Assembly (NCBI RefSeq): GCF_017357405.1
Contig: NZ_CP071597.1
Location: forward strand, 2,108,001 to 2,172,000
Length of the DNA: 64,000 nucleotides
Reading direction: 5' to 3'
Origin: Halomontanus rarus
GTDB taxonomy: Archaea; Halobacteriota; Halobacteria; Halobacteriales; Natrialbaceae
How positions within the stretch are numbered: position 1 is the stretch's first letter; each line of letters starts with the position of its first letter. The translations under genes were made by a program, and so were the position numbers. Of the stretch, positions 9,875-55,773 are shown one piece after another. A model generated the notes under the pieces. It saw nothing but the letters and a program-made list of their open reading frames with translations, had not been told where the DNA came from and did no database searches.

Positions 9875-12800
9875 TTACTGCTCGAGCGTTCCCACCGCCG
9901 GCAACGTAAACGAGAAGGTCGCGCCCGCGCCGGGTTCGGAGTCGACCCGGATCTCCCCGGCGTGGCGCTCGACGATCCGCTGACAGAGCGCCAGCCCGAT
10001 ACCGGCGCCCGGGTACTCCTCGCGTCCGTGCAGCCGGTGAAACACCTCGAAGATTCGATCGGCGTCGTTCGGATCGATGCCGATCCCCTCGTCGCGAACT
10101 GAAACCGTCCATTGCCGTCCATCTCGTTCGGCCGAGACGTGGACACGCGGGGGCTCGTCACCGCTGTAGGTGATCGCGTTGCTCAGGAGGTTCTGGAAGA
10201 CCTGCCGGAGTTGCCCCGCATCCCCCTGCACTCGAGGTAAGGAGTCCGCCGTAATCTTCGCGTCGGACTCCTCGATTTTCATCTGGAGGTCGTCGAGTAC
10301 GTCCTCGAGCACCGTGTCGAGGTCGACCGGCTCGAACGCCTCGCCGCGCGTCTCGATCCGGGAGTACTCGAGCAGCCCCTCGATCATGCCGCGCATCCGT
10401 TCGGCGCCGTCGATGGCGAACGCGAGGAACTCCTCGCCGTCGTCGTCGAAGGCGTCGTCGTACCGGCGTTCGATCAGTTGCAGGTAACTCGAGACCATCC
10501 GCAGGGGTTCCTGTAAATCGTGGGAGGCAGCGTAGGCGAACTGCTCTAACCGCTCGTTGGACTCCTCTAACTTCGAAATCGTCTCCTCGAGTTTGCGCTG
10601 ATACTCGCGGCGTTCGGTGATGTCGGTGAGCGTGACGACGGCACGACTCACCTCGCCGCGTTCGTTTCTGACCGGCATCCCGTGTTCCATGATGACGCGT
10701 CGTTCCCCGTCGACGGTCTCGATCTCGTACACGTTGGGTTCCGAGACCGCCTCGTCCCGAAGGACCTGTGCCATCGTCCACTCCTCCGGATCGACGCGTT
10801 CGCCGGTATCCGCCCACCACGCCGTGTAGCGATCGTAGTCGGCGACGTCAGCCGCGTCGAAGACGTCACCGCCCCAGATCTCCTTCGCCGTCTCGTTGGC
10901 TTTGACGAGGTTTCCGTCCGCCTCCGCGACCACGACGCCGACGGGCAACACCTGAAACAGCGTTTCGAGTTGCCGTCGTTGTTTCTCGAGCGCCCGCTCC
11001 GCCTGCTTTCGCTTCGTGATGTCGGCGAGCGCACCGGGGAACGAGATCGGATTGCCTTCGGCGTCACACTCGACGTGGCCGCGAGCGACGACCCACCGGA
11101 GTTCGCCGTCGGCGTTCCAGACGCGGTACTCCGCCTCGTACTCGCCACAGTCCGCCATGGCGGCCTCGATCTTCTCGATGACGCGCTCGCGGTCGGCCTC
11201 GTGGATCGAGTCGGTGATCCGCTCGAGAGGGACACCCTCGCGGGCCGCTTCGGGGTCGACCCCGAACCGTCTGGCGAACGACGCGCCGGTGACGAACTGG
11301 TCGGCGGGAATGTCCCACTCCCAGGTACCGATCGCACCGGCTTCGGTCGCAGCTTCGAGCTGGGCCTTGGCGTCGCGCAGGTACCGCTCGCGCTCTTTTT
11401 GCTCCGTGATGTCCTGAGCCATCGTCATCCCGGCGAAGACGTCCCCTTCCGCGTCGGTGATCGGGACCGCGTGGACGACCCACTCCCGGTCGACGTACTC
11501 GAGTTCGACCGATCGCTCCTCGCCGTCGAGGGCCGCTCGTAACGTTGGTTCGAGGACTTCGGCGACGTCTTCGCCCCACACGTCCGGCGGCGTCTGGCCT
11601 TCGATTTCGTCGGCGGAAACGGGGAAATCCTCGAACGCCTGTCCGGCGGCGAGCGTGTACCGAAGATCGTCGTCGAACAGGGTGACGATCCCGTTGGGGA
11701 AGTACTCGGCGAGCGTCCGGTATCGGCGCTCGGATCGCTCGAGTTCGCGTTCGCGCTGGATGCGGTCGTGAACGTCGCGAAAGTAGACGGAGACGCCGGT
11801 CCGGGAGGGATAGACGTGGGCTTCGACCCAGAGGTCGAGCGGGTCGAAGTAGAGTTCGTAGCTGGTCGGTTCCTGGGTCTCCATCGCCGTGTGGAAGGCG
11901 TCCCAGACCTCGTCTTCCGCGGCGGCTTCCGGGAACAGCTCCCAGAGGGACTCGCCGAGCAGTTCCTCCTCGGGGTGACGGAGGAGTTTCTCGGCGCGCT
12001 CGTTGACGTGGGTAAACCGGAACTCCTCGTCGAGCGCGTAGAAGGCGTCGGACACCCGACCGAACACCTCGTTCAGTTCCGTCGAGAGGTCGTCCGCTCG
12101 TTGCTCGAGGCGGCGTTCGCGTTCTTTGATCTCGGTGACGTCCTTCCCGGTAGTGACGACGCGATCGATCTCGCCGTCGTCGTCGAACAGCGGCGTGGCG
12201 TTGACCGAGAGCCATCGGCGTTCGCCGTCCGGGAGGACGACCGAGAGCACGTTTCCGATCACGGGCTCGCCGGTCTCGAGCGTCTTCGCGAAGGGGTGAT
12301 CTCCGATCGAGAGAGAACGACCGTCTTCGTCGTAGACGGGCCTGTCGGACGGAGAGAACTCCCCGGATTCGCCCTCGAAAATGCCGAGGAGTTTCTTCCC
12401 CCGGTCGTTGATCCGGACGATCTCGCCGTCGGAATCGAGGACCATGATGCCGACCGGACTGGTCTCGAGGATCCGATCGGTGAGCTCTTGCTCGCGCCCG
12501 AAGGCCTGCTCAGGCCCGGTGGCGTCCCGCATCTCACGTTCGGTGGCGGCCCGTCGTTCTCTAGTTTGGTCGCTGACATCGCGGACGATTCCGACGGTTC
12601 CCTGACGCGTGCCATCTTCGACGAGCGGATTCACCCGAAGTTCACAGCGAATCGTCTCGCCGTCGGCAGTTCGAATCGGTGCCTCGAACAGGTCGTCGCG
12701 ACCGTTGTCGTCTGTCGTCGTGTGTGGAGAGGAGGGGGAAGCCTCGAGTTCGAGTCCCGAAACGTCGTCGGCCAGCAGAGTGGAGACGTGTTCCTCGACG

Positions 12801-51008: not shown

Positions 51009-51060
51009 CGGCTCGAGGGTCTCGTACTCGAGGTTCGAGAACCGGCGAAAAGCGACGAAC

Positions 51061-51149
51061 GGAAGGGGTGGGATTCGAACGCCACGAGGCCGAACGGCCT
51101 CCGCGGAACCAGAGGGCTCCACGGTGCTCTTCCGCTGAGCGACCCTTCC
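51061..51149 (-). ncRNA. tRNA-like RNA with extended hairpin instead of an anticodon arm
   Basis: An 89-nt minus-strand sequence that folds like a tRNA but not fully. The acceptor stem is GGAAGGG / CCCTTCC (7 bp, discriminator G). The D arm is TCGCTCAGCGGAAGAGC with a 4-bp stem and GG in the loop. The T loop GTTCGAATC is canonical, but its stem needs a bulged C (GTGG-C-G / CCCAC). A long variable arm AGGCC-GTTC-GGCCT is present. In place of the anticodon arm (51101-51124) is a 10-bp hairpin, CCGTGGAGCC / GGTTCCGCGG, with a CTCT tetraloop, so no seven-base anticodon loop forms. An intron-containing or decayed tRNA is the alternative. No CCA is encoded. Confidence 0.55.
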
Positions 51150-51265
51150 CGTCTCACAGGTAGGCGGGGATCGCATTAGTAATCGGCCGCCTACCGTGTC
51201 CGTAGGTGGCGCTTTCGTCCGGCGGTTCCGTCTCGAGTCGGATTCGCCGACCGCGAGAGTCCGGA

Positions 51266-53358: not shown

Positions 53359-54492
53359 TCACACGATTCGCACGTCCACGACGACGTGCTCGACACCGGC
53401 GCTGTGGCTCTTCACGCGTCGTTTCTCGAGCACCTCGAGTTCTCGACCCGCTCCCTCCCGCTCGATTGCAGACTCGAGGCGCTCGAGCGGGCGCTCCCAC
53501 AGCAGGGGTTCGGGCGTGGCCTCGTGGTAGTGGAGCACGCCGCCGGGTTCGAGGGCCTCGAGGGCGTGGGCCAGAAAGGCATCAGCCTCGTCGCTGCGCG
53601 TGCCGTGGCCCGCGTCGTCGGTCCCGTCGGCGGCACCGTAGTAACCCATGAGGACGCGGTCGGCCTCGACGGTCGCGGCGAGGTCGCGACAGTCCGATCG
53701 GTAGGCGTCGACGCGGTCGGCGACGTCGTTCAGTATCGCGTTCTCGAGCAGGTATCGAAACGCGGTCGGGTTGATCTCCGTGGCCGTCACCCGCGCGCCG
53801 GCGCGGGCCATCGGCAGCGTGAAGTAGCCGATGCCGGCGAACATGTCGAAGACGCGCTCGTCCGGTTCGACGATCCGACCCATCCGCGCGCGCTCGGCCT
53901 GATTCCCCGGCGAGAACATCACTCTCGCGGGGTCGAGTCCGTACCGGGTCCCGTGTTCGGTGTGGACCGTCTCCGTGTCCGTCGAGCCCGCGAGCAGTCG
54001 TGTCCGCGGCTCCCGGTAGGTTCCGGCCGCGCCGTCGTTGGCGATCCCCTCGTCGGCGAGCACCGAGGTCGCCTCGCCGTGGAGGTCGAGCAACGCCTCG
54101 CCGACGTCGCGTTCCTGTGCGGCCGAATAGCCGTCGGGAACCGTCACGAGGATCACCGAGCCGATCACCGCCCACGAGCCGGGAACCGACTCGAGGTCCG
54201 CCTCCGTCCAGCCCCGATCCGCGAGCAGACCTTCGAGACTCGGGCTCCGGCGGTCGGGATCGATCTGGCGGATCACCTCGAGCACCCACGTCTCGGCGGG
54301 CGGTTCTGTAACCGGCAGCGCGACCGTCTCCGGGTCGTACTCGCGGACGCGCCTCGAGTCGTCGTAGACCCCCTCCGCGCGGAGCGACTCGATCGCCGTC
54401 TCCGAGCGGGGTTTTTCGACGACGGCCGCGAGCGGGTTCGGGTGATCGTCGTCGACTCGCGTCACCGTCCGGTCGGCGTCCTCGTCACTCAT
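53359..54492 (-). CDS. taw2: Trm5/Taw2-family tRNA modification enzyme
   Basis: A 377-residue class I SAM-dependent enzyme of the Trm5/TYW2 family that modifies G37 of tRNA-Phe. N-terminal domain about residues 1-160; catalytic core with motif I VFDMFAGIGYFTLPMAR (about 220-236), ATEINPTAFRYLLEN and late VLMGYYGAAD (about 287-296). Trm5 methyltransferases have N-L-P at the last place, whereas MGY is typical of Taw2, the aminocarboxypropyl transferase of wybutosine synthesis; hence the call, with Trm5-like activity as alternative. Its start overlaps the NMD3 stop by 8 bp, so they form an operon. Confidence 0.8.
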   Translation of the reverse strand: MSDEDADRTVTRVDDDHPNPLAAVVEKPRSETAIESLRAEGVYDDSRRVREYDPETVALPVTEPPAETWVLEVIRQIDPDRRSPSLEGLLADRGWTEADLESVPGSWAVIGSVILVTVPDGYSAAQERDVGEALLDLHGEATSVLADEGIANDGAAGTYREPRTRLLAGSTDTETVHTEHGTRYGLDPARVMFSPGNQAERARMGRIVEPDERVFDMFAGIGYFTLPMARAGARVTATEINPTAFRYLLENAILNDVADRVDAYRSDCRDLAATVEADRVLMGYYGAADGTDDAGHGTRSDEADAFLAHALEALEPGGVLHYHEATPEPLLWERPLERLESAIEREGAGRELEVLEKRRVKSHSAGVEHVVVDVRIV

Positions 54493-55636
54493 CGCCGTCG
54501 TCCGACTCGTCCGGCAGAATGTGCAGGCCGGCGCGGCTCTTCAACACGGGCACGGTGTCGGCGTCGGGATCAAAGTAGTCCGGCCTCGAGACGGTCTTCG
54601 CCTGAAAGGTCTCCGGGTCGAGCACCTGCACCGCGTGCTCGTCTTCGATGGTGACGACCGTCGTCTCGACGGCGTCGTCGACGTCGCCGAGTCGGCGCGC
54701 GTCGGGCGAGTTCCCCTCTTCGTAACTTGCTTCGTAGTGGTCGCCGGTCGTCACGCGGGTTCCCTTGAGGTTTCCGCGGGCGCTGCGGACCAACACCGGA
54801 CCGTCGTCGTCCGCGTCGTCCTCGAGTTCGATGACCTCGCCGGGGGTGTACGGTGGGAGCCGGACGGCGAAGGTCACCCGGTAGACGCCGTTGCCGTCTT
54901 CGTCCTCGGTGACGAGGGTTTCGGCGTCGTTGACGGTGCCGCCGAACTCCTCGACCATCTTGTTCGAGATCTTCTTGCCGATCTTGTTGGTCGAGACCTT
55001 CAGGTCCAGCCCGTCGGGCGTCTCGGTCGTGTCGGTGATGAAGGCGTTGCGGTCGCCCGTCGCCTCCATGTCGGCGACGATCTGGTTCGAGATGGTCTTC
55101 GCCCGTTCGATCTCCTCGGTGGTGGGCGTGCGGTCCTCGGCGCGGATCTGGACGATACTGGCGTAGTAATCGCCCGAGATTCGCCCGCAGCGCGTGCAGG
55201 TTTGGCGGGCGATCCTGACGGGGACCGTCACCTGTTCTTCGACCGGCGTTCCGCGGGCGACCCCCGTGAAGTAACAGTGCATCCGGATCGTGTTCTGATC
55301 GATCTGCTCGGGTTCGACCTGCCAGGCGACGTCCTCGACGTCGACGTGGACGGCGAGTTCCTCGCTGACCTCCTCGATCGCGATGTCAGTGTAGTCCTCG
55401 GCACCCACGTCGACCCAGCGCCGGCCTCGGTGGACGGCCCCGCACCGGGCGCAGACGCGAACGTCGATCTGATCCGGCGCGTCGACGAACTCGAAGTCCT
55501 CGAAGTAGCAAGCGTCACAGAGGTCGACGTCGGCGCTCGGGGAGAGCGGGTCGTCGACACCCCCGTCCGCCTCGCTCACCGTCCGGTCGGGAACCGGATC
55601 ACCACACCGCGGGCAGAACGCGCGCGATTCACTCAT
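54485..55636 (-). CDS. nmd3: NMD3 family ribosome biogenesis protein
   Basis: A 383-residue archaeal NMD3 protein. Several CxxC knuckles bind zinc: FCPRCGDPVPD (residues 7-17), LCDACYFEDFEF (about 39-50), VCARCGAVHRG (about 61-71) and QTCTRCGRISGDYY (about 145-158). The eIF5A/SH3-like part follows (about 170-380). Eukaryotic NMD3 is the 60S export adaptor; in Archaea it is thought to act in large-subunit assembly. The ATG at 55636 (MSESRAFCPRCGD) puts the first zinc knuckle at the N-terminus; a longer frame is less likely. It is first in an operon with the Taw2-like gene. Confidence 0.94.
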   Translation of the reverse strand: MSESRAFCPRCGDPVPDRTVSEADGGVDDPLSPSADVDLCDACYFEDFEFVDAPDQIDVRVCARCGAVHRGRRWVDVGAEDYTDIAIEEVSEELAVHVDVEDVAWQVEPEQIDQNTIRMHCYFTGVARGTPVEEQVTVPVRIARQTCTRCGRISGDYYASIVQIRAEDRTPTTEEIERAKTISNQIVADMEATGDRNAFITDTTETPDGLDLKVSTNKIGKKISNKMVEEFGGTVNDAETLVTEDEDGNGVYRVTFAVRLPPYTPGEVIELEDDADDDGPVLVRSARGNLKGTRVTTGDHYEASYEEGNSPDARRLGDVDDAVETTVVTIEDEHAVQVLDPETFQAKTVSRPDYFDPDADTVPVLKSRAGLHILPDESDDGDE

Positions 55637-55773
55637 TGCCCGTCGTTTGGCCCTCAGCGTGTTAAGCGGCGCGCTCCCTGGCCGCCACGTCGTGTCTACG
55701 GGCACCCGCCGTTCGAATATGTAGGGATTCGTTCCTGTACGCTGGCGATCACGAATCGTTTCTCAAAATCTGA

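Follow-up and report, generated by a model that had tools for sequence, protein, structure and literature searches.

A tRNA-like RNA with a hairpin in place of the anticodon arm in Halomontanus rarus is shared by many haloarchaea and probably works outside decoding

The stretch of the H. rarus genome analysed here (64,000 nt; hereafter, the window) contains on its minus strand a tRNA-like RNA gene that sits between a gene for a DEAD_2/Helicase_C_2 helicase, from which it is divergent, and a DUF7561 gene, towards which it is convergent. Read along the minus strand from 51149 to 51061, the 5' half runs GGAAGGG TC GCTC AGCGGAA GAGC A, followed by the hairpin CCGTGGAGCC CTCT GGTTCCGCGG, and the 3' half runs [AGGCC GTTC GGCCT] C [GTGG(C)G TTCGAAT CCCAC] CCCTTCC. 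The features of the locus are the following:

51175..51183, minus strand: TATA-like box ATTACTAAT, 26-34 nt upstream of the RNA
51061..51149, minus strand: entire tRNA-like RNA, 89 nt (fold; relatives by BLAST, covariance model and pattern)
51143..51149, minus strand: acceptor stem, 5' strand GGAAGGG (no variation in any of the 7 pairs across all 30 aligned sequences, namely the window copy and 29 found by BLAST)
51126..51140, minus strand: D arm GCTC-AGCGGAA-GAGC (alignment; 4 pairs, 100% of cells paired)
51101..51124, minus strand: hairpin of up to 10 bp with a CTCT loop, replacing the anticodon arm (8 of the 9 pairs in the model vary on both sides)
51086..51100, minus strand: long variable arm AGGCC-GTTC-GGCCT plus C48 (alignment; similar to that of tRNA-Ser(UGA) in the same genome)
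51068..51085, minus strand: T arm GTGG(C)G-TTCGAAT-CCCAC, bulged C at 51081 (one-base bulge required in 126 of 126 distinct RNAs)
51061..51067, minus strand: acceptor stem, 3' strand CCCTTCC (alignment)
51060..51060, minus strand: position 73 (discriminator), G (also G in all 65 Natrialbaceae-type RNAs)
51048..51051, minus strand: short downstream T run, a possible terminator weakly favoured by counts across loci

The first-pass annotation of this DNA had described a 7-bp acceptor stem, a D arm, a long variable arm, a T loop, a T stem in need of a bulged C and, in place of the anticodon arm, a 10-bp hairpin with a CTCT loop; the minimum-energy structure of minus strand 51149-51061 contains every one of these arms, the bulged C included. 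The energy of this fold is -47.3 kcal/mol, compared with a mean of -35.1 in 200 shuffles (z = -3.2), and a single shuffle of the 200 folded as well or better. The hairpin forms 9 pairs and the variable arm 6 in the whole-RNA fold, whereas folding the central part alone gives the 10 hairpin pairs originally described and 5 in the variable arm. In the D-arm region, T8, A14, G15 and GG match ordinary tRNAs. Since the structure recurs with compensatory changes in relatives, as detailed below, the fold reflects more than chance.

ARAGORN made no call at the RNA, Rfam returned no match at E<=1 across the surrounding 4 kb, and none of the 44 tRNA-family matches obtained in the same genome at E<=10 corresponds to the RNA. 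When seven relatives were scanned with the Rfam model RF00005, six scored 39-48 bits (cut-off, 29 bits), and one (L185), like the window copy, gave no match; ARAGORN produced either no call or odd calls at the relatives' RNAs tested. Besides this RNA, the genome contains all four tRNA-Ser types, all five tRNA-Leu types and a tRNA call for every amino acid apart from Trp, for which no gene was found; the tRNA-Trp of Haloferax carries a 103-nt intron, according to the available part of the source (PMC7714728). A coding explanation was rejected: open frames do cross the RNA, but they lack credibility because the gathered RNAs (77-116 nt) differ in length by steps that are not multiples of three. 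Elsewhere in the window, ARAGORN called a tRNA-Asp at 12677-12769 (plus strand) whose fold is no better than in shuffled sequence (z = +0.95) and which is missing from the 44 matches—likely a false call.

The distribution of the RNA was assessed by three kinds of search. BLAST found it in 31 of 61 genomes, including that of H. rarus and one genome represented by a fragment only; a covariance model (E<=1e-8) had matches in 94 of 293 genomes from the order, H. rarus again included; and an exact pattern, whose backward version gave zero matches in the genomes listed, found it in 181 of 391 haloarchaeal genomes and 44 of 86 genera. By family, the exact pattern matched 88 of 101 Natrialbaceae genomes (leaving 13 without), 9 of 10 in f17, 9 of 9 in f7, 5 of 7 in f14 and 70 in f5 and f4 together, f5 being the Haloferacaceae, since it contains Halobium salinum. 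No exact-pattern match occurred in 23 genomes of f12, 14 of f6 or 7 of f9 to f11. Because it is missing, by pattern, from these families and from part of the Natrialbaceae, the RNA is not essential to haloarchaea. Outside the order, none of 241 sampled genomes contained the RNA, and a stricter pattern matched 43 named stretches of a species collection, all with haloarchaeal titles. The exact pattern does overlook some relatives: a more sensitive search of 36 pattern-missed genomes returned 30 matches, and among the 21 listed were 18 ordinary tRNAs and three relatives (L218, L221 and L241). A loose model search, with matches in 356 of 391 genomes, was rejected as a measure of prevalence, given that ordinary tRNA-Ser matched at that threshold. 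Finally, a short and a long form of the RNA occur within one genome in several cases (G058, G089, G096, G146 and, from Halobium, G330).

The hairpin that replaces the anticodon arm varies in sequence and length among relatives, and its pairing is kept. Covarying changes in it across related haloarchaea, which the first-pass annotation had suggested looking for, were found. In an alignment of 85 sequences (77 distinct rows) fitted to the model (A3), pairing is kept in 95.3% of cells, and the whole structure shows 101 double-change cells against 26.5 (sd 4.1) when shuffled and at most 16 when slid; within the hairpin, 8 of the 9 modelled pairs show changes on both sides. Two MAFFT alignments, made from sequence only and unfitted to structure, gave 18 double-change cells against 6.0 shuffled and at most 8 slid (A1) and—the weaker case—8 against 2.4 shuffled and at most 6 slid (A4). 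Across the 126 distinct RNAs gathered by pattern, the hairpin starts at position 27 in 110, and the central region folds better than its own shuffles (median z -2.8). Only one of the 126 has the potential for a 5-bp anticodon stem that closes a 7-nt loop containing U33 (canonical place, at least 4 pairs). The canonical arm is present in all 42 ARAGORN-called ordinary tRNAs of up to 95 nt, a control that is partly built in, as ARAGORN named their anticodons. The replaced arm spans 14 to 38 nt, the shortest consisting of a 5-bp stem with a TTCG loop. In many members of family f4 (L202-L217, mainly genus g47), the arm loop keeps a motif like TGCCAGAA, with a varying stem; this motif may be a binding site.

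The T stem has a nearly fixed flaw. Without a bulge, the T stem makes 2 of 5 pairs in every one of the 126 distinct RNAs, and a one-base bulge is needed to reach five; the genome's ordinary tRNAs have five T-stem pairs in 40 of the 40 (of 42) that the script could read. The bulged base is C in the Natrialbaceae form and T, one place over, in the others. Because the search pattern that collected the 126 RNAs holds most of the acceptor stem and the 3' T strand constant, invariance in these parts is partly built in; the acceptor is fully common to the 30 sequences of the first, BLAST-based alignment. Outside the 126, L185 and L241 (genus g67) are exceptions with a perfect T stem and a GAAAGGG acceptor, and L218, also of genus g67, has a GGTAGGG acceptor. 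In L185 (1923-2084, minus strand, genome G122), this divergent anticodon-less form is located 6 nt ahead of an ARAGORN-called tRNA-Gly(UCC); Rfam lists neither of the two in that stretch. Many RNAs from other families (L168-L187 and L197-L201) have GGCTTC or GGCTCC immediately 5' of the T arm, kept even where the fold shows no pairing partner.

The sequences flanking the gene contain candidate expression signals. The consensus AT box of the relatives lies about 27-36 nt upstream, i.e., some 2 nt farther out than that of the window copy. In 65 Natrialbaceae-type upstream regions, from G+C-rich genomes, the A/T fraction is 1.00 at -34 and -33 and 0.95-0.98 at -30 and -29. The other 61 distinct RNAs show a weaker rise (at most 0.80 at -30), similar to the ordinary tRNA genes of H. 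rarus (0.71 at -30). Downstream, runs of at least four T within 40 nt were mildly enriched, occurring at 29 of 124 loci versus 7 of 124 in a control stretch.

The genomic surroundings of the RNA depend on the family. Among 103 Natrialbaceae-type loci, which represent 65 distinct RNAs and include some places fetched twice, the helicase gene is present at 96, the DUF7561 gene at 89, both at 84 and neither at 2. Second copies of the Natrialbaceae form were seen elsewhere in two genomes of genus g6 (L079 in G286, L080 in G232), without either usual neighbour. Beyond the helicase gene in the window (53359-55705, minus strand), and likewise in a number of relatives, lie genes for a TRM5/TYW2-type methyltransferase and NMD3, both of which belong to tRNA or ribosome biology. 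Outside the main Natrialbaceae set, an 80-104-nt form (mostly 91-104 nt) occurs downstream of, and in the same orientation as, sdhA, which encodes the succinate dehydrogenase flavoprotein, at 34 of 70 fetched loci (31 of 61 distinct RNAs); two sdh-linked loci belong to Natrialbaceae genomes (G370 and G007), and four long RNAs (97-116 nt) have no sdhA alongside in the fetched stretch. A partner gene was sought among the neighbours and none was common across families in the clusters listed, sdhA lying beside one locus set only; this cluster analysis omits 3 of 73 loci owing to a script pattern mismatch (L185, L219 and L220, the last two of which are ordinary tRNA-Ser). Such differences in neighbours between families are expected of an RNA acting in trans, and the differing neighbours and sites imply that the gene moves like a tRNA gene and that no single neighbour explains the RNA. 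Searches of plasmid records, of phage records and, by pattern, of viral contigs gave no match, and an integration scar or mobile element was rejected on this ground. At L028 (1591-1940), about 28 bases of the RNA 3' end are repeated, with changes, some 300 nt downstream together with the following sequence, in tandem—a possible trace of duplication or integration.

Several known RNAs resemble this one in part. Bacterial tmRNA and YrlA (Y) RNAs contain a tRNA-like module without a usable anticodon, as does the haloarchaeal RNA; however, ARAGORN finds no tmRNA in the window, the gathered RNAs do not exceed 116 nt, and a tmRNA identity was rejected for the 89-nt window copy. Within its own genome, the closest likeness is to tRNA-Ser(UGA), with which it shares G73 and a near-identical variable arm (GGCCGTCAGGCCTC versus GGCCGTTCGGCCTC), whereas the D arm, the acceptor sequence, the T-stem bulge and the lack of an anticodon loop set it apart. 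The available part of the work on tRNAOther of Bacillus cereus describes a pseudo-tRNA outside translation with a proposed regulatory role (PMC3399842). The haloarchaeal RNA is alike in being a putative pseudo-tRNA that would not serve translation. As described there, tRNAOther is bacterial, lies beside a genomic island and is part of a larger RNA; the haloarchaeal RNA, in contrast, occurs in many species with an adjacent upstream AT box and a covarying replaced arm. The 5S t-element of Haloferax volcanii (PMC4326828, available part) is another haloarchaeal tRNA-like fold, and like it the anticodon-less RNA is probably a substrate of tRNA-processing enzymes. The t-element sits in the rRNA operon, whereas the anticodon-less RNA stands alone and has both a D arm and a T arm, the stem of the latter being bulged. 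Identity with a 5S t-element was rejected, because the two 5S genes found in the H. rarus genome lie elsewhere with a different t-element of their own, in which, by eye, the T stem is perfect and one long hairpin stands for the D and anticodon arms.

Published inventories of Haloferax volcanii give 52 tRNA genes (PMC2584109) or, in another count, 51 tRNAs, and the available parts of both make no mention of an anticodon-less RNA. More broadly, no description of such an RNA was found in the literature searched, namely in the available text of PMC10927574, PMC7714728, PMC8450103, PMC6000648, PMC4326828, PMC2584109, PMC3956466, PMC2841640, PMC4946936, PMC6490895, PMC5892119, PMC8007984, PMC3432209 and PMC3399842; the study of Haloferax tRNA-like elements by Hoelzle et al. 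2012 (Biochimie) lay outside this scope.

The DNA itself shows acceptor and D arms and a T loop of the normal kind, together with an AT box at the distance of a promoter and a conserved hairpin instead of the anticodon arm, and it is likely that the gene encodes a stand-alone structured RNA that mimics a tRNA and would be unable to decode. Given that many haloarchaeal species keep it, this is probably a working RNA outside decoding and not a broken gene. Among the three readings offered at first, the tRNA mimic, with regulation as a candidate role, gains from the covariation, the AT box and the kept bulge; the relic and the intron-bearing pre-tRNA were both abandoned. A decaying tRNA pseudogene or integration scar would account for the missing anticodon, for the silence or odd calls of ARAGORN at the RNAs tested and for the partly repeated 3' end at L028; nonetheless, it is highly improbable, since compensatory changes, the AT box and the T-stem bulge would not persist through several families in a relic, and since the genomic place is conserved and the mobile-element records searched are devoid of matches. 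Scarcely credible is an intron-containing tRNA in which splicing restores a normal anticodon loop, even though archaeal introns are usually located in the anticodon arm, as the available part of PMC7714728 states. Four of the 126 replaced arms are 14-16 nt long, under the 17 nt of a spliced anticodon arm, and the intron reading was rejected on this basis, which excludes a spliced tRNA for these four shortest members only; bulge-helix-bulge sites were judged from arm lengths, and for longer members length alone does not decide. Also against an intron, the hairpin loops vary among relatives with no constant anticodon, and the genome has tRNA calls for all amino acids other than Trp. For the window copy, neither a standard tRNA after intron removal nor a lack of helix conservation—the outcomes named at the start as speaking against the mimic—was found.

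An unlikely variant of the mimic is an RNA dedicated to carrying an amino acid, which seryl-tRNA synthetase (SerRS, which needs no anticodon) would charge in Natrialbaceae and a non-ribosomal transferase would use. SerRS recognises the variable arm and G73, and the Natrialbaceae-type RNAs combine a long variable arm with G73 in 65 of 65; furthermore, the best global match among the genome's own tRNAs is tRNA-Ser(UGA), with a score of 21.5 versus 16.0 for the next. Position 73 in the other 61 distinct RNAs, on the other hand, is G in 34, A in 26 and C in 1, and a position that is G or A, and not fixed, argues against one aminoacylation identity. Several long forms show no clear variable arm in folds inspected by eye, and each of the 18 genomes tested, whether or not it has the RNA, gave a single strong match to the SerRS N-terminal domain and no sign of a dedicated synthetase; a dedicated SerRS was rejected, the extra matches falling under the cut-off except for one of 31.7 bits in G055. 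Quite improbable is a cis-acting processing signal (t-element), at which cleavage by RNase P and tRNase Z would free or trim neighbouring transcripts, e.g., the 3' end of sdh mRNA. In Haloferax, tRNase Z is known to act on the t-element ahead of 5S rRNA (PMC4326828, available part), and the same-strand position downstream of sdhA at nearly half of the loci outside the main set would fit this role. The Natrialbaceae RNA, however, is divergent from the helicase gene, convergent to the DUF7561 gene and preceded by its own AT box, and the genome's own 5S t-element is, by eye, built differently, with no clear D arm and another acceptor in addition to its perfect T stem. Nor would a processing signal presumably need the conserved T-stem bulge.

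Returning to the tRNA mimic that would be unable to decode, its conserved positions fall mostly within the acceptor-elbow half. RNase P, tRNase Z, the CCA enzyme, the elongation factor and some synthetases recognise this half in tRNAs, the elongation factor contacting the T stem. From the conserved acceptor-elbow half, the replaced decoding half and the flawed T stem, we infer that the RNA engages a tRNA-handling protein outside translation. The RNA would be transcribed from the upstream AT box, and RNase P and tRNase Z would trim its ends as they do for tRNA. Owing to the T-stem bulge, the elongation factor would load the RNA less readily, and the lack of an anticodon would prevent codon reading, so that the RNA would stay out of translation. 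A protein reading the acceptor stem and elbow would most likely be its point of action, and the hypervariable hairpin could be a plug, required only to be helical. Within this reading, a decoy or sensor for a tRNA-handling enzyme is a possible, still tentative role. A charged amino-acid carrier acting outside the ribosome would rank below it, on the doubtful side, because serine charging fits the Natrialbaceae form but not the whole class and each of the 18 genomes tested has one strong SerRS match.

We tentatively propose that haloarchaea may maintain a tRNA lineage dedicated to uses other than decoding, in two forms, some genomes having both. Its acceptor-elbow half would still engage the tRNA machinery, either by carrying an amino acid or by sensing how tRNAs are processed or charged, and the decoding half would have become an inert, freely evolving hairpin. 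Most known tRNA-like RNAs that do not decode are single cases or parts of larger RNAs. A family that extends across much of an archaeal class, with a covarying replaced arm and a nearly fixed T-stem flaw, would amount to a natural experiment on the roles of the two halves of tRNA—and, if the genus Haloferax carries the RNA, its use would be directly testable by deletion.
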